From positions 1 through 37,440 of the forward strand of contig JAURMM010000044.1 in assembly GCA_030830685.1 (NCBI GenBank): 37,440 nt of DNA, written 5' to 3'. A model generated the notes under the pieces. It saw only the letters and a list, made by a program, of their open reading frames with translations. It did not search any database and was not told where the DNA came from. Numbering within the stretch: the stretch's first letter is position 1; the number at the start of each line of letters is the position of its first letter. A program made the position numbers and the translations under genes. The stretch is from Gammaproteobacteria bacterium. GTDB taxonomy: Bacteria; Pseudomonadota; Gammaproteobacteria; Ga0077536. Shown here piece after piece: positions 5,244 through 12,019 of the stretch.

Positions 5244-5804
5244 TCAGGAATGAGGGTGGCGTTTCAGCAGGACATAGACCGCACCCGTGCCGCCATCCGC
5301 GGGCCGCGCGCTGATGAAGGCGGTGACTTCTCCAAGATGGCTCAGCCAGTACGCAACGCGCGGCTTCAGCACTGGTGCGAGACCCGGCGATCGATAGCCC
5401 TTGCCGTGAACCACCCGCACACACTTCAGGCCTTCTTCAACGCCATGCCGGATGAACATGGCCAGTCGCTGCCGTGCTTCATCCACGGTCTGGCCATGCA
5501 GATCGAGTGTGGCCTGAATCGGAAACTCGCCGCGTCGCAGACGTCGCCAGAGCGCGGGCTGCAGGCCCGGCCGGCGGAATTCCAGATGGTCTGCCTCAGT
5601 CAACTCGGTCTCCGAGGGTTCCGTGAGCGACATGACCGGGGTCTGGTGCAGCCGGCGCCGTGGCGGCAATCGGGGCTGGCGCGTCGGCATCGCTGCAGTG
5701 TCGTGACTGAGCGGCCGCACGTCTGAAACGGCGGAGCGGAAGAGGGCCTCTTCTTCGGGCGAGATTGCAGGCGCGGGATTCTTGCGAGGCAGTGTTCTGC
5801 GCAT
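5244..5804 (-). CDS. Smr-domain endonuclease family protein (SmrA/SmrB-like)
   Basis: Smr domains are nuclease-like modules; E. coli SmrB cleaves mRNA between collided ribosomes and SmrA is a related paralogue. From the ATG at 5804 the product has 186 residues, like both E. coli proteins (about 185). It starts with a Lys/Arg-rich end and SPEEEALFRSAVSDVRPL, a stretch shared by this family, then a Pro/Arg-rich linker, and a C-terminal Smr domain with LDLHG (100-104) and HGKG (133-136), matching the DxH and HGxG-type catalytic motifs. The ORF runs open to 5990, but the extra 62 residues look unlike the family, and a GGAG lies about 10-13 nt before 5804. SmrA versus SmrB cannot be decided by eye. 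It is followed on the same strand by the 60-aa gene. Confidence 0.9.
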   Translation of the reverse strand: MRRTLPRKNPAPAISPEEEALFRSAVSDVRPLSHDTAAMPTRQPRLPPRRRLHQTPVMSLTEPSETELTEADHLEFRRPGLQPALWRRLRRGEFPIQATLDLHGQTVDEARQRLAMFIRHGVEEGLKCVRVVHGKGYRSPGLAPVLKPRVAYWLSHLGEVTAFISARPADGGTGAVYVLLKRHPHS

Positions 5805-5851
5805 GCGCGGGAAGACTCCGGGTGACGAGGGCGACAGATGTGCCGGCCGGA

Positions 5852-5860
5852 AATCTATCA
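5852..5860 (-). promoter_or_regulatory. Possible extended -10 promoter element for the Smr gene
   Basis: Read on the minus strand the sequence is TGATAGATT: a TGn extension followed by TAGATT, one or two mismatches from the sigma-70 consensus. It lies about 48 nt before the Smr start at 5804. No good -35 hexamer is present at 17 nt, which extended -10 promoters can tolerate. Weak evidence from pattern alone. Confidence 0.28.
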
Positions 5861-6051
5861 CGCCGGGCAGGTGCGCGTGGTACCCTTCGCGCCGGCCGTC
5901 ACCACCCCATACCGGGAGTCCCGTCGTTTTCATGCCTGCTCCGACCGATATCTTCACCGCAGAGTCGGCACCGGCCCGCAGCGCCATCACCGGACGCCCG
6001 CGCCCGCGCCGCAGGCCGCAGCCAGTCCAGGAAGAGGGTGCTTACCGCACC

Positions 6052-7161
6052 ATGATCCTCACCTCCGTTACGGACATCGATCCTCAGCGCTGGGATCGGC
6101 TGGTTGGCCCTGCCGCCATCACGCGCTCCCATGCGTATCTCAGTGCAGTCGAGGCGGCCGCGATTCCGGAATGCCGGTACTTCTATCCGGTAGTCTTCAA
6201 CGCCCGGAACGAGATCGTGGCACACGCTTGCGTGTACACCATCGGCACGGACTTCGCGCAGTTGTTGCCGCGCGCGCTGCAGCGACTGGTGGAAGTGGCC
6301 CGGCGCATCCGCCCCACCCTGCTCAAGGCACGCATCACCGAATGTGCATCGCCGCTGGTGGCCGGGCATTCCCTTTCCGTTGCGATCGATGCTCCTCGTG
6401 CGCGTCTTATCGCCCGCCTCGTCGACGCAACGGCCGACATCGCGTGGGACGAAGGCAGCTCACTGGTCGTGATCCGTGACTTCCTGCCTGAAGAAACCGA
6501 CGTGGTGGAGGCCCTGCAGGAGCGCGGCTTCAACTGCGTGGCCAATATGCCGCTCGCCCGGATCAGAGTGCGTTGGAACTCTCATGAGGAATATCTCGCG
6601 GCAATGAAACCTCGTTACCGCAAGGATGTGGTGCGGCGACTGCGTCGCGCGCGAGAGCCCGGTCTGACAGTGCGACGAATCGAACAGTTCGGTGACGCCG
6701 CACAAACCTGGTTGAGACAGGTGTTGGTGGTGCAGCAGGCCGGCTCGCGCTTCAAGCGTGAGGTCCTGACGGAGGAGTACTACCGCCAGATGGATCGTCG
6801 GCTCGGCCGGGACAGTTGTCTGCTGGTGGCCGAAAGAGACGGTGAGGCGGTCGCGCATGGCATGGTGATCACCGATCGTGACAACACGGTCGCCACCTTC
6901 TTCGGCCGGGAGGCTGGCAAGCCGGGGCGGGAATGGTTTCTGCTGGTGGACGAGGTGATTCGCGCAGGTATCGAACGCAGGAGCCGCCACATCCATCTCG
7001 GACTCGGGTCTTATGAGGCCAAGGCCTTGGTGGGCGCTGAAAGTTTACCGCTCACGATTCTCTGTCGCAGCCGTTACCGACTGGTGAATTGGCTCATGCG
7101 GCGCATCCCGGGAATCGTCAACCGTAGTGCGCGTCCCGCGCCCGAGATCTTCAGGGATTGA
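6052..7161 (+). CDS. BioF2-like GNAT acyltransferase (FemAB/peptidoglycan-biosynthesis type)
   Basis: The product looks like a double-GNAT acyltransferase of the BioF2-like / FemAB-related class (Acetyltransf_6), whose members transfer acyl or aminoacyl groups to cell-envelope or secondary-metabolite substrates; the substrate here is unknown. From the ATG at 6052 it has 369 residues and begins with DIDPQRWDRLVG and SHAYLSAVE, as family members do. Residues 181-199 (YLAAMKPRYRKDVVRRLRR) form the basic motif opening the second GNAT fold, and GLGSYEAK (317-324) is the conserved distal motif. There is no membrane segment. The frame is open from 5782, and ATG 5932 (409 residues) is an alternative start; its additional N-terminus is Arg/Pro-rich and unlike the family. 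Both starts have GGGAG/GAGGG about 13 nt upstream. Its last 11 nt overlap the end of the convergent flippase-like gene. Confidence 0.82.
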   Translation: MILTSVTDIDPQRWDRLVGPAAITRSHAYLSAVEAAAIPECRYFYPVVFNARNEIVAHACVYTIGTDFAQLLPRALQRLVEVARRIRPTLLKARITECASPLVAGHSLSVAIDAPRARLIARLVDATADIAWDEGSSLVVIRDFLPEETDVVEALQERGFNCVANMPLARIRVRWNSHEEYLAAMKPRYRKDVVRRLRRAREPGLTVRRIEQFGDAAQTWLRQVLVVQQAGSRFKREVLTEEYYRQMDRRLGRDSCLLVAERDGEAVAHGMVITDRDNTVATFFGREAGKPGREWFLLVDEVIRAGIERRSRHIHLGLGSYEAKALVGAESLPLTILCRSRYRLVNWLMRRIPGIVNRSARPAPEIFRD

Positions 7162-8056
7162 GCCCCCCAGGGGCAGTTGGACGCCTGGCCTGCGTGAGGT
7201 CCCACATCCCACCGAGGATGGCGACAGTCACGCGCAGGCAATAGAGGGAGGTCGCCAACAGGGCTGCCTGTGGCAGGCTGAGACCATGAAGTATGTAGAG
7301 CGCACCCCCCGCCAGATCTCCGAGATGCAGTCCGCCTACATTCACCGGGACCACCTGTAGCAACCCCCCGCAGGCCACCACACCGAGCACGTCCAGGAAG
7401 GCGATCTCGATCGCCCACATGCGCGCAAGATTCCAGACGGCCACGGCCAGCAGCAGCTGCATCCCAAGCGAAAAAGCGAGCGCGTAAAGCGTGTCGGGCA
7501 CACGAGTGCGCAGGGGACTCAGCATTCTCCGGGTGCGGTGTCGCAGACCACGCAGGGTCGAGAGCACGAGGATCGGCAACAGGCCCGCGCCCAGGACAGT
7601 CGCCCCGAGCCAGAGCCCTTCCCCCGCCAGCCGATCAAGCACCCATGGCATTACGAGCAGCAGCAGCGCCAGCGAGCCGAGCAGGTGATCCAGCACGATG
7701 CCGCCCGCGATCTTCCGGCGGGACATCCCGGGCGCTGCGGCCGTGCAGAGTGCGAAGCGGGTAAGGTCACCACCGACCGAGAGCGGCACGAAGGCCTGAT
7801 AGAAGCTGGCGCTCGCGGTCAGCCGCAGCGCATGCAGGGGCGGGAGATCCAGATTGACCAGACGCATCACAGTGCGGAAGCGACCGGCGTAGCAACAGAA
7901 GGCGCCGAGGGTGAGCACCAGCGAGATGAGCACGCGCACGCCTTCTGCCTGCGGCAGGGCCGCGAGTTCGCCGCGCAGACTGAAGAAGAGCAAACCAAGA
8001 CCAGTCACGGCCAGGCTCACGCGCAACAACATCAATCCGCGTCTCATGTGCACCAT
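7151..8056 (-). CDS. Flippase-like / lysylphosphatidylglycerol synthase TM-region (UPF0104) protein
   Basis: This is an integral membrane protein of the LPG_synthase_TM / UPF0104 family, the domain that in MprF flips aminoacylated phospholipids; stand-alone members are mostly uncharacterised. The 301 residues hold about seven or eight hydrophobic helices (roughly 8-26, 40-58, 116-139, 148-168, 190-211, 219-240, 263-284). Two re-entrant-type conserved motifs are visible: FVPLSVGGDLTRF near residue 90 and VPVNVGGLHLGD near 240, the latter a variant of the usual PxxxGGLGxRE. ATG 8056 and ATG 8047 are both possible; neither has a strong ribosome site. It lies 39 nt after purL on the same strand, so it may be read from the purL transcript, and overlaps the acyltransferase gene tail to tail by 11 nt. 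The transported substrate is unknown. Confidence 0.85.
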   Translation of the reverse strand: MVHMRRGLMLLRVSLAVTGLGLLFFSLRGELAALPQAEGVRVLISLVLTLGAFCCYAGRFRTVMRLVNLDLPPLHALRLTASASFYQAFVPLSVGGDLTRFALCTAAAPGMSRRKIAGGIVLDHLLGSLALLLLVMPWVLDRLAGEGLWLGATVLGAGLLPILVLSTLRGLRHRTRRMLSPLRTRVPDTLYALAFSLGMQLLLAVAVWNLARMWAIEIAFLDVLGVVACGGLLQVVPVNVGGLHLGDLAGGALYILHGLSLPQAALLATSLYCLRVTVAILGGMWDLTQARRPTAPGGLNP

Positions 8057-8095: not shown

Positions 8096-11000
8096 TCAAG
8101 CCACGAAACGTCGCGCGTTTGCGAACAGACCAAACCAGGGGGATTCCATCGCCTGCCAGGTGGGCGACAACCATGAGAACTGCTTGGTGAGGAACACGCG
8201 CTCGGGATGGGGCATGAGGATGGTGGCACGACCATCGTTGGAGGTCACGCCGGTGATGCCTGCTGCCGAACCGTTTGGGTTGTGCGGGTAGTGATACGCT
8301 TCGAGGCCCCGGTTGTCGACAAAACGTACGCAGACGTCCGTGGGAACATCCGCAAAAACTGCACGTCCTTCGCCATGCGACACCACCAGAGGGGCCTGCA
8401 GTCCGGCCATGTCCCGGAGCAGAACGGAAGCTGAGGGCAACACCTCTGCCATCACCAGTCGCGCCTCGTACTGCTCGGAACGATTACGCAGAAAACGAGG
8501 CCAGTGAGTCGTACCTGGAATGAGGCTTTTCAGCTGGGACAGCATCTGGCAACCGTTGCAGACACCCAGGGAGAACGTCTCCGGACGCTGGAAGAACGCA
8601 CTGAACTCGGCCTCGGTACGCGCGTTGAACAGGATTGAACGGGCCCAGCCGCCTCCCGCGCCCAGCACATCCCCGTAGGAGAAACCGCCGCAGGCCGCCA
8701 GACCCTGAAAGTTCGCAAGCGAGACGGTTCCGCTCATCAGATCCGACATGTGGACATCAAAGGCATCAAAGCCTGCTCGCGCAAACGCCGCGGCCATTTC
8801 ACGCTGCCCATTCACACCCTGCTCGCGCAGGATCGCGACGCGCGGCCGCGACAACGCCAGTGCCGGCGGGATCGTGAAAGGCAACCCCTCGGGCACTTTC
8901 AGCTGCAGGCCAGGATCCTGCCGATCGAGCACGGTGGCAAGCTCCTCATCTGCACAGTCCGGATGGTCGCGCAGCCGCTGCAGTCTGTGGGTAGTGGCAG
9001 TCCACTCTTCCAGGGGCACGAAGAGATCTTCCTGATAGAGCAGTTCGGATCCGTGCGTGATCGAAAGCACTGTGCCTGCCACCACAGGACCCAGAACATG
9101 AAGATGGGCGTCCGGTATGCCTTGCTGCGAAAACACGGCCAGTACCGCCCTGAGATCCTCGGCCCGGACTTGCACCACCACACCCAGCTCTTCGTTGAAG
9201 AGCACCTGCACCGGATCTGCTCCAAGCGTGGCGATATCAATCCTGAAGCCGCGCCGACTCGCGAAGGCCATTTCCATCAGCGTGACCAGCAGGCCACCAT
9301 CGGCTCGATCGTGCGCGGCAAGGAGGTAACCGCTCTCATTCAACAATTGCATCGCGGCGAATGTGGCGACCAGGTCCTCTGGATGTTCGAGATCCGGCGC
9401 TTCATGACCAAGGCTGTCGCAGACCTGCGCGCACACTGAGCCGCCGAGGCGATATCGGCCGCGCCCAAGGTCGACCAACAGCAGCAGCGTGTCATCCTCG
9501 GCTGCGAGCATGGGCGTCAAGGTGGCACGCACATCTGCCACGGGTGCGAAGGCAGATACCACCAGACTGACCGGAGAGGTACTGGCGTGTTCCACGCCAT
9601 CTGCTCGCCAGCTGCTGCGCATGGACATCGAATCCTTGCCGACAGGAATGCAGATCCCGAGCGCTTGGCAAAGTTCGCTGGTGGCGGCCACCGCCTGGTA
9701 AAGCGTGGCGTCCTCTCCCGGCTGGCCTGCGGCCGCCATCCAGTTGGCAGAAAGCACCACCTCGGAGAGATCGAGAATCCGGGCAGGCAGGAGATTGGTG
9801 AGTGCTTCACCGATGGCCATGCGTGCCGAGGCAGCACCATCCAGCAAGGCGAGCGGCATGCGCTCGCCGATGGCGAAGGCCTCGCCCGTGACACCCGTGT
9901 AGTCGAGCGAGGTCACGGCACAGTCCGCGACCGGCACCTGCCAGGGGCCGACCATCGGGTCGCGTACCGACAGGCCGCCGACCGTGCGATCACCAATGGT
10001 GATGAGAAATCGTTTGTCGGCCACTGCCGGGAAACGCAGGACACGTCTGATGAGCATAGGCAGTGCGGGCCAACGCCCGGGCAGAGGCTGCACCGGGAAA
10101 CGCGCGGTCTCCACCGTACGGAACATCTTCGGTGGCTTGCCAAACAGAACTTCCATCGGGAGATCGACCACCGCCTCGCCGGTGCGCGAGTCTTCCACAC
10201 GAAGATGGGGCTCTTCAGTTGCCACGCCCAACACCGCTACCGGACACCGCTCCCGCCTGCAGATCGCCAGCAGGTTGTCCAGGTCGGAGGGGGCCACGCC
10301 CAGCACATAACGCTCCTGTGCTTCGTTGCACCAGATCTCGAGCGGCGACATGCTTGCATCTGCGCTCGGAATCGCGCGCAGATCCAGCCGACCGCCCCGA
10401 CCGCTGTCGTGCAGGAGCTCAGGCACGGCATTCGAGAGTCCGCCGGCCCCCACATCGTGAATAGACAGAATGGGATTGTGCTCACCGAGCGCACAGCAGG
10501 TATCTATGACTTCCTGGACCCGGCGCTCCATCTCCGCGTTGTCTCGCTGGACCGAGGCAAAATCAAGATCGCCCTGACTGCTGCCGCCGCGTTGTGAGGA
10601 CGCGGCACCCCCGCCGAGGCCGATCAACATGGCGGGTCCGCCAAGGACCAGTACGCATGCACCTGCGGGCAGGCGCAATTTCTCCACATGGCCGGGACGC
10701 ACGTTGCCGATGCCTCCCGCCAGCATGATGGGCTTGTCGTAGGCACGACGCCTGCCATCCAGGCTGGATTGCTCGAACGTCCGGAAATATCCCCCGAGCG
10801 CTGGTCGACCGAATTCGTTGTTGAAGGCGGCTGCACCGATCGGCCCCTCCAGCATGATCTGGAGCGGGCTTGCGAGACGGGGATTGACCGGACGAGGTGC
10901 TTCCCAGTGCTGGGTGAAACCGGGAATGCGCAGATGGGACACCGTGAAACCACTGAAGCCCGCTTTGGGGCGCCCGCCGCGCCCGGTGGCGCCTTCGTCA

Positions 11001-11956
11001 CGGATTTCACCGCCCGCGCCAGTTGCCGCGCCCGGATAGGGCGAGATTCCGGTGGGGTGATTGTGGGTCTCCACCTTCATGAGCAGCTGCATCGGCTCGT
11101 GCTCGGCGTGGAAACAGCGTGTGGCGGGGTCCACCTGCCACCGTTCTCCCGTGTGACCCCGCGTCACCGCGGCATTGTCGCGGTAGGCGGAGAGGACCTG
11201 ATTGGGATGTGCTGCATGCGTGGCGCGAATCATCCCGAAGAGGCTCGGGCTGCGCGCAACACCATCAATCTGCCAGTCGGCATTGAAGATCTTGTGGCGG
11301 CAATGTTCAGAGTTGGCCTGCGCGAACATCATGAGCTCCGCATCGGTCGGATCGCGGTCGAGCGCAAGATAACAGTCGGCCAGATAGTCGATTTCATCTG
11401 GCGCGAGGGCCAAGCCGAGGCGTGCATCCAAGGCTTCGAGCGCGGTGCGGCCTTCGGCGCGGAAGGGCACCCGGCCTAGCACACCGGGCTGCAAGGTGCC
11501 GTAGAAGCAGAGCCCTTCTGCCGCCGGGTGCACGCTCTCCGTCATGCGGTCGTGGAGGAGCGGTGTGACTTCTTCCCAATCCTCGTCCCGGAAGCCATTC
11601 AGCTCCCACAGTACGGCGCGTTCGATGCGCAGGATTCCGTTCAGCCCGCAGTTGTGCGCGATATCGGTTGCCTTGCTGGCCCAGGGCGAGAGGGTGCCGA
11701 GTCGTGGCGCCACATAGCGGGCCCGCGCGGGTGGCGTGAAGTCAGCATGCGGGGTACCTAGCAGCGCCATCAGCCGCGTCAGGGTTTCCCCTGCCAGGGG
11801 CGCATGACTCCAGACCACATAGAGCCAGGTTGCACGTGCCGCTACGAGCTCGGGGTGGCGCTGCCGCAGACGCTCGAGCAGGCGCTCGATACGGAAATCG
11901 GAGAGGGCGGCGTCCCCGGCAAAAATCCGGGCGTGGGGCGTGGCGTCTGCGGACAT
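8096..11956 (-). CDS. purL: Phosphoribosylformylglycinamidine synthase (single-chain)
   Basis: PurL converts FGAR, ATP and glutamine to FGAM in step four of de novo purine synthesis. From ATG 11956 the protein has 1286 residues, matching the large single-chain gammaproteobacterial type (E. coli 1295). Visible are SPWASKATDIAHNCGL near residue 100, FAQANSEHCRHKIF, KVETHNHPTGISP and GAATGAGGEIRDEGATGRG of the synthase domain, and the glutaminase domain with GVCNGCQ (Cys1133) and PHPERVF (His1250, Glu1252), all catalytic residues present. A longer frame starts at GTG 12004 but its 16 extra residues are Pro-rich and unlike the family. A 109-nt leader with an inverted repeat separates it from the upstream DUF7931 gene on the same strand. 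Confidence 0.98.
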   Translation of the reverse strand: MSADATPHARIFAGDAALSDFRIERLLERLRQRHPELVAARATWLYVVWSHAPLAGETLTRLMALLGTPHADFTPPARARYVAPRLGTLSPWASKATDIAHNCGLNGILRIERAVLWELNGFRDEDWEEVTPLLHDRMTESVHPAAEGLCFYGTLQPGVLGRVPFRAEGRTALEALDARLGLALAPDEIDYLADCYLALDRDPTDAELMMFAQANSEHCRHKIFNADWQIDGVARSPSLFGMIRATHAAHPNQVLSAYRDNAAVTRGHTGERWQVDPATRCFHAEHEPMQLLMKVETHNHPTGISPYPGAATGAGGEIRDEGATGRGGRPKAGFSGFTVSHLRIPGFTQHWEAPRPVNPRLASPLQIMLEGPIGAAAFNNEFGRPALGGYFRTFEQSSLDGRRRAYDKPIMLAGGIGNVRPGHVEKLRLPAGACVLVLGGPAMLIGLGGGAASSQRGGSSQGDLDFASVQRDNAEMERRVQEVIDTCCALGEHNPILSIHDVGAGGLSNAVPELLHDSGRGGRLDLRAIPSADASMSPLEIWCNEAQERYVLGVAPSDLDNLLAICRRERCPVAVLGVATEEPHLRVEDSRTGEAVVDLPMEVLFGKPPKMFRTVETARFPVQPLPGRWPALPMLIRRVLRFPAVADKRFLITIGDRTVGGLSVRDPMVGPWQVPVADCAVTSLDYTGVTGEAFAIGERMPLALLDGAASARMAIGEALTNLLPARILDLSEVVLSANWMAAAGQPGEDATLYQAVAATSELCQALGICIPVGKDSMSMRSSWRADGVEHASTSPVSLVVSAFAPVADVRATLTPMLAAEDDTLLLLVDLGRGRYRLGGSVCAQVCDSLGHEAPDLEHPEDLVATFAAMQLLNESGYLLAAHDRADGGLLVTLMEMAFASRRGFRIDIATLGADPVQVLFNEELGVVVQVRAEDLRAVLAVFSQQGIPDAHLHVLGPVVAGTVLSITHGSELLYQEDLFVPLEEWTATTHRLQRLRDHPDCADEELATVLDRQDPGLQLKVPEGLPFTIPPALALSRPRVAILREQGVNGQREMAAAFARAGFDAFDVHMSDLMSGTVSLANFQGLAACGGFSYGDVLGAGGGWARSILFNARTEAEFSAFFQRPETFSLGVCNGCQMLSQLKSLIPGTTHWPRFLRNRSEQYEARLVMAEVLPSASVLLRDMAGLQAPLVVSHGEGRAVFADVPTDVCVRFVDNRGLEAYHYPHNPNGSAAGITGVTSNDGRATILMPHPERVFLTKQFSWLSPTWQAMESPWFGLFANARRFVA

Positions 11957-12019
11957 GCTGGGTCTTGGAGGTGATGGAGGTGGCGCGGGAGGCCGTATTG
12001 TCACCTCGGCCCCCGCTTA

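Follow-up and report, generated by a model that had tools for sequence, protein, structure and literature searches.

A FemAB_like transferase gene and a flippase-type gene form a conserved convergent pair in an uncultured gammaproteobacterial family and may work like a split MprF

The transferase and flippase-type genes

The window analysed here, a stretch of 37,440 nucleotides (nt) from Gammaproteobacteria bacterium (GenBank assembly GCA_030830685.1, contig JAURMM010000044.1), is one contig from a draft genome of 3.09 Mb with a completeness of 91%. It carries a FemAB_like tandem-GNAT transferase gene, hereafter AT, and a gene for a stand-alone LPG_synthase_TM membrane protein, hereafter FLP. 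The original prediction described a FemAB-type double-GNAT gene on the plus strand and an LPG_synthase_TM gene on the minus strand that meet tail to tail with 11 nt shared, and the open reading frames (ORFs), their translations and the Pfam assignments confirmed this arrangement.

6052..7161, plus strand: AT, FemAB_like tandem-GNAT transferase, 369 amino acids (aa), ATG start (ORF translation, Pfam, AlphaFold2 model with mean pLDDT 90.8)
7151..8056, minus strand: FLP, LPG_synthase_TM protein of the lipid-flippase type, 301 aa (ORF translation, Pfam, AlphaFold2 model with mean pLDDT 83.6)
7151..7161, no strand: tail-to-tail overlap of AT and FLP, 11 nt, with both stop codons inside
7021..7023, plus strand: codon of AT Lys324, invariant in 26/26 family orthologues and in 17 other aligned FemAB_like proteins

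The AT frame is open upstream as far as a TTG at 5782; the orthologue alignment begins only at about 6052, and no homology was seen before that point. In Pfam, AT matched FemAB_like (PF04339; expectation value (E) 6.8e-15, 55.5 bits against a gathering cut-off of 27) and, also above its cut-off, Acetyltransf_6 (PF13480; E 1.5e-6), together with a weak match to PF00583 in the list to E 1, which held neither LPG_synthase_C (PF09924) nor FemABX (PF02388). FLP matched LPG_synthase_TM (PF03706) above the cut-off, with an E of 8.2e-13. Neither protein had a named match in NCBIfam at E 0.001, and PF09924 gave 0 matches across the window's own genome. The COG of PF04339 is COG3146. A benzoate-hydroxylase role of COG3146 was tested and was not supported (PMC3223725). 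A promoter scan revealed no promoter-like site, and a terminator scan gave 3 terminator-like sites against 1.2 expected, none of them near the junction of AT and FLP.

Co-occurrence and adjacency of the pair

We compared the window with 144 related genomes, 36 of them from its own family and 108 from outside it. AT orthologues (E below 1e-90) were present in 26 of the 144 and FLP in 24, all inside the family; among the 108 outside genomes FLP was found in none at E 0.001, and AT gave only weak matches, in 19 of them (best E 8e-11). Within the family, 24 genomes carry both genes, two carry AT only (G014 and G025), none carries FLP only and 10 carry neither (Fisher p 2.6e-7); for the 23 genomes that are at least 90% complete the same counts are 16, 1, 0 and 6 (p 7e-5). 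These p-values were not corrected for kinship and are optimistic, since the family genomes are related. A profile search did not find FLP in any of the 12 family genomes without it. Those scored as lacking both genes were G001, G006, G007, G009, G011, G013, G017, G023, G024 and G028, of which G011 holds only a weak AT paralogue (E 2e-6). Genera g1, g3 and g6 each hold carriers of both genes as well as one genome with neither (G001, G007 and G024, completeness 92-99%), and therefore AT and FLP were jointly gained or lost more than once. The mirror-tree correlation between AT and FLP was 0.85 over 231 pairs, which, without a housekeeping control, says merely that the trees are similar. FLP of G016 and G018 was omitted from alignments A2 and A4, the first match having crossed one stop; in a later profile search both were free of stops.

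In 23 of the 24 two-gene genomes AT and FLP lie on the same contig, and there they are convergent in 23/23. The stop-to-stop distance is between -25 and +357 bp in 21 of these 23 pairs, 12 of which overlap. Four genomes (G002, G015, G021 and G026) share the exact overlap of 11 nt, and the other adjacent pairs show overlaps of 16-25 nt or gaps of 3-357 bp. Co-occurrence and adjacency across relatives had been proposed as a check of the pairing, and an independent distribution of the two genes was not what we observed; their linkage is strong within this one uncultured family.

The 25 named loci obtained by searching with the AT alignment come from uncultured assemblies, most of which have Gammaproteobacteria in their titles. 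Three assemblies that bear the name Klebsiella pneumoniae (L090, L102 and L107) carry contigs of the window's uncultured family, and their labels look wrong. No FLP was found in viral contigs. The nearest FLP relatives seen outside the family (L114 in G299 and L115 in G189, E about 1e-41) stand beside a DsbD-type gene and an APH/AAA kinase-like gene, identities taken by Pfam from L114 only; the G189 and G299 genomes gave no AT match. Adjacency of PF04339 and PF03706 as a general rule was rejected: in the class genomes outside the family that hold both, it occurs in 0/7, with six having them on different contigs and one at 400 kb.

Predicted folds

The AlphaFold2 models of both proteins were compared with solved structures. 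The FLP model matched six MprF entries with Z scores of 17.6-20.7, the next match of any kind being at 5.8. The match spans MprF residues 55-354, mainly flippase Subdomain 1, which in R. tropici MprF corresponds to residues 24-325, while Subdomain 2 comprises transmembrane segments TM9-14 (PMC8131360). Position 247 of FLP is D or E in 22/22 sequences and position 275 is R or K in 22/22; the mapping of these positions to the Glu280-Arg304 gate of MprF comes from a weak profile alignment (E 0.004, probability 8%).

The AT model was nearest to FemX (Z 22.6), FemA (21.7) and the tRNA-dependent Sba18 and Sbb17 (21.5-20.9). MprF and the MprF synthase domain, which are aminoacyl-phosphatidylglycerol synthases, aligned over both GNAT folds with Z 17.7-19.6, and a tandem GNAT from M. 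abscessus reached 17.9. Structure prediction of the transferase pocket had also been proposed as a check; in the confident AT model the MprF synthase domain is among the close folds, a little below FemX and FemA. The AT alignment profile matched MprF synthases from these and other genomes over residues 156-320 (E 3e-5, probability 73%). Profile searches of AT and FLP against PDB sequences gave nothing significant (FemX E 0.67). Both folds are clear.

Relatives of the transferase in other lineages

The closest AT relatives found outside the family are in eight Rhizobium/Agrobacterium plasmid records, with 24-27% identity over 88-95%, and in eight genomes within a sample of 398 genomes of the phylum. 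A tree was built from 10 of the 26 family AT proteins and 17 outside relatives, with four of the eight plasmid proteins and all the genome relatives except G575 and G681. In this tree the plasmid proteins and those of G647, G623, G486 and G502 fall together with the family AT, and the proteins of G555 and G702 form a separate group with ordinary FemAB_like proteins (support 1.0). Arg/Lys142-Asp143 and Tyr321 are common to the AT side, and Lys324 is invariant on both sides.

We inspected the neighbourhoods of all 16 outside loci, and no FLP homologue was found in them. In 8/8 plasmid loci AT lies in an operon-like run that includes a response regulator, a kinase-like protein, an MtnX-like phosphatase, a class III aminotransferase, an arginase-like protein (hypothetical by annotation in L160, Arginase by Pfam), an alpha/beta hydrolase and two small EamA genes, one of them named 'permease' in four records. 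A desaturase is present in five of the eight records, and four of these five also have a cyclopropane synthase. These records are not independent, given that three are from Agrobacterium larrymoorei and a single strain of Rhizobium acidisoli accounts for two more. Among the genome loci, at least one EamA homologue is near AT in 4/8 (two in G647, G623 and G486, one in G681), and none was seen in the G575, G502, G555 and G702 loci. Two EamA proteins of one sister cluster had as best NCBIfam matches ArnE (7e-14) and ArnF (2e-11), both below the cut-offs; by the name of the NCBIfam model, ArnEF is the undecaprenyl-phosphate-aminoarabinose flippase.

The rhizobial plasmid cluster looks like an envelope-lipid modification operon, and our literature search found no description of it. 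It can be seen in Rhizobium acidisoli pRapFH23c (L148, 635-10776), also in L146, L147, L149 and L158-L161, and partly in L150, L154 and L155.

Genomic context of the pair

Two neighbouring genes frame the pair in the window:

8096..12004, minus strand: purL, upstream of FLP on the same strand, with 39 nt between its stop (8096) and the FLP start (8056); found there in genus g1 only
5244..5990, minus strand: Smr-domain gene (smr), divergent from AT; adjoins purL in G001, with neither AT nor FLP between

G001 belongs to g1, the genus of the window, and in it purL is followed directly by smr, AT and FLP both being missing; the two ORF calls overlap by 43 nt, and the start is uncertain. Among the stretches compared, purL is beside FLP in g1 only, and the earlier suggestion that the flippase merely rides on the purL transcript fails outside that genus. 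In g1 the flanks are smr and purL. The g3 neighbours are folE and genes for a flavin reductase and an Lrp-type regulator, and most of g4 has CbtA, a short-chain dehydrogenase (SDR) and an aldehyde ferredoxin oxidoreductase there, with Pfam identities run on one member per genus. An ABC/Sir2/Rieske set was also seen. Since most flanking genes change between genera while AT and FLP stay together, the pair behaves as a cassette. When clustering was re-run, seven clusters besides AT and FLP were common to more than one genus. Two of them are frames antisense to AT or FLP, and the five believable ones are SDR (g3, g4 and g10), aldehyde ferredoxin oxidoreductase (g4 and G018), luciferase-like monooxygenase (g4 and g8), glyceraldehyde-phosphate dehydrogenase (g4 and g8) and fatty-acid hydroxylase (G025 and G035). 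A wider pathway around the pair was rejected, the neighbours varying by genus with no common route.

In genus g8 a protein of about 965 aa with AMP-binding, phosphopantetheine carrier and acyltransferase regions is encoded between FLP and AT (L069 13611-16514 in G019; L064 4224-7109 in G012), as judged by Pfam on the G019 copy and by clustering for the G012 copy. Such a gene at this position is in keeping with lipid chemistry. In genus g10, AT lies tail to tail with an MsbA-related ABC transporter gene (L065 in G014 and L074 in G025), and in G020 (L070) a poly-gamma-glutamate hydrolase gene intervenes. The MsbA-related copies beside AT are above the TIGR02204 cut-off. As a replacement flippase for g10 this transporter was set aside as no more than a possibility: it is over the cut-off in 25/36 family genomes, FLP carriers and AT-less ones included, and because the gene is so widespread its position beside AT may be incidental.

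Two more LPG_synthase_TM proteins are encoded in the window's genome. One (contig C87, L084 4052-7976) lies between CDP-alcohol phosphatidyltransferase and group-1 glycosyltransferase genes and is possibly part of a separate glycolipid system; the other (contig C195, L085 1496-2371) lies beside an alpha/beta hydrolase and an EamA transporter.

Discussion

We consider it reasonably probable that the two genes together make up an envelope-lipid module, working in the manner of an MprF that has been split. The observations behind this reading are the co-occurrence of the genes, their conserved convergent adjacency, folds that match the two halves of MprF, and the association of sister AT genes with flippase-like EamA genes. 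AT, as a soluble tandem-GNAT enzyme, would act on the cytoplasmic side and attach an aminoacyl group to the head group of a lipid in the membrane or of a lipid-linked carrier, with aminoacyl-tRNA as the most likely donor and, less surely, acyl-CoA (CoA, coenzyme A) or another one. Aminoacyl transfer is favoured because the nearest AT structures use aminoacyl-tRNA. FLP would move the AT product outward or scramble it; PaMprF is reported to scramble lipid without an energy source (PMC11980842). The strongest hint that the AT product may be a lipid that needs to cross the membrane is that two different flippase-like families accompany the AT subfamily, depending on the lineage.

Several findings weigh against this reading, and on their account the split modify-and-flip system of the original prediction stands only in part. 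AT lies outside the MprF synthase family (PF04339/PF13480 instead of PF09924), and as a single sequence it gave no match to the MprF synthase profile (probability 1.4%). G014 and G025 keep AT without a detectable FLP, and in three genomes the pair is apart: AT and FLP are separated by 4.7 kb in G012 and 8 kb in G019 and are on different contigs in G020. Being convergent, they are not co-transcribed. FLP lacks Subdomain 2 and, by the weak alignment, also an acidic counterpart of Asp234, the residue of MprF that binds lysyl-phosphatidylglycerol (LysPG); if that alignment is right, FLP handles a different head group. Lys324 does not mark tRNA use, because it is general to the FemAB_like proteins aligned. 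As for the sister loci, the EamA proteins also match EmrE-type SMR drug exporters, more weakly, and one matches EmrE in PDB (E 0.001); in the rhizobial clusters AT may do a different step, as other enzymes of lipid and amine metabolism are present there.

The pairing could be real and the chemistry not MprF-like, if AT were an acyl-CoA- or acyl carrier protein-dependent N- or O-acyltransferase making an acylated amine or amino-acid lipid that FLP flips. Acyl-CoA is the typical acyl donor of GNAT enzymes (PMC4964394), some tandem-GNAT folds belong to acyl-CoA enzymes, and N-myristoyltransferases and mycothiol synthase align to the AT model with Z 15.9-17.4, the CoA-binding mycothiol synthase (17.4) coming just under the MprF entries. 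The desaturase, cyclopropane synthase and class III aminotransferase of the sister rhizobial cluster would also suit such an enzyme, as might a degenerate CoA-like [QR]xxGx[GA] that is present at the expected loop in 8/26 AT. Nevertheless, FemX and the tRNA-dependent peptide synthases lead mycothiol synthase by 3.5-5 Z, as FemA also does, a lead that for MprF is merely 0.3-2.2, and the canonical CoA loop is not conserved across AT. We regard this alternative as rather unlikely. It is also unlikely, to a somewhat greater degree, that the genes are unrelated, with AT modifying a peptidoglycan precursor or a soluble metabolite, FLP scrambling bulk lipid like YbhN, and the adjacency simply inherited. 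FemX and FemA, whose solved folds are nearest to AT, act in peptidoglycan synthesis, and Pfam links FemAB_like to peptidoglycan, in name only. YbhN and other MprF-type domains that stand alone are believed to transport lipid without any modification (PMC11980842), convergent genes can be regulated separately, AT occurs alone in two genomes, and the Fisher test overstates independence among related genomes. Against it, the pair persists while its neighbourhoods largely reshuffle between genera, carriers and joint non-carriers are found within three genera, and sister AT genes are also beside flippase-like genes. The correspondence of the two folds to the two ends of MprF would fit descent from an ancestral MprF gene by decay or splitting as well, a possibility to which we give very little credence: the affinities of AT are with PF04339/PF13480 and with sisters in rhizobial and other clusters, not with PF09924, and since G004, G010 and G018 have full-length MprF frames (875-899 aa) besides the pair, the pair there is not a broken MprF.

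Beyond the family of the window, we tentatively raise the possibility that a FemAB_like subfamily not described before produces modified membrane lipids across several lineages of proteobacteria, each with its own recruited flippase, MprF-type and tail to tail here and an ArnE/ArnF-like pair in the rhizobial plasmids and other genomes. Our literature search found no paper that pairs a FemAB_like transferase with a flippase. If the proposal is true, a FemAB-based system would be a third route to envelope-lipid modification, beside MprF and GpgSDF/HexSDF; lipid modification by synthesis and flipping would not be bound to MprF, separate and exchangeable parts being sufficient; and a family known only for 'peptidoglycan biosynthesis/recognition' would gain membrane lipids as a substrate class. 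It would also predict an unknown lipid in uncultured Gammaproteobacteria, Rhizobium and Agrobacterium.

Comparison with known systems

The AT/FLP pair is not an MprF. The two have in common the fold of flippase Subdomain 1 and a cytoplasmic transferase with a tandem-GNAT fold; MprF is a fused polypeptide with a PF09924 synthase, whereas here there are two convergent genes, an AT of PF04339/PF13480 and an FLP without Subdomain 2 and, by the same weak alignment, with no clear equivalent of Asp234. A natural split is mechanistically plausible, because the flippase and synthase halves of S. aureus MprF function as two separate proteins (PMC2774229). Of the 36 family genomes, five have PF09924; four of these carry the pair and G013 does not, the G033 match being a contig-edge fragment. 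MprF as an alternative to the pair was rejected, given that no mutual exclusion was seen among the 36 genomes. Some stand-alone LPG_synthase_C frames of 341-401 aa were also noted (L136 in G109, L137 in G064 and L138 in G056), too short to hold the MprF flippase domain.

FemX and FemA have the solved folds nearest to AT; they differ from it in sharing only 9-13% identity, and AT has no match to PF02388 in the Pfam list to E 1. FemX and FemA are not known to have a flippase partner. The Rhizobium/Agrobacterium plasmid cluster resembles the present locus in that a transferase of the AT subfamily is accompanied by two small flippase-like genes, and differs in that this pair is SMR/EamA instead of LPG_synthase_TM and belongs to a larger cluster with regulator, kinase-like, aminotransferase, arginase-like and fatty-acid genes. 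The likeness to ArnEF consists in the NCBIfam matches of the two EamA proteins; in the window, however, no ArnEF-like genes are beside AT, and SMR drug exporters match EamA proteins too.

In GpgSDF of Pseudomonas aeruginosa and HexSDF of Clostridioides difficile, separate lipid-head-group enzymes are accompanied by an MprF-like flippase gene of the AglD2-YbhN type (PMC12713373, PMC10128005). These systems share with the pair separate head-group enzymes and a stand-alone MprF-like flippase, for which FLP qualifies by PF03706. Their enzymes, a glycosyltransferase-type synthase and a deacetylase, are encoded in one operon and carry out sugar chemistry, whereas here the enzyme is FemAB_like and convergent, and the neighbours of FLP are AT and purL. 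As precedents for an MprF-like flippase accompanied by separate lipid-head-group enzymes, these two systems come nearest.

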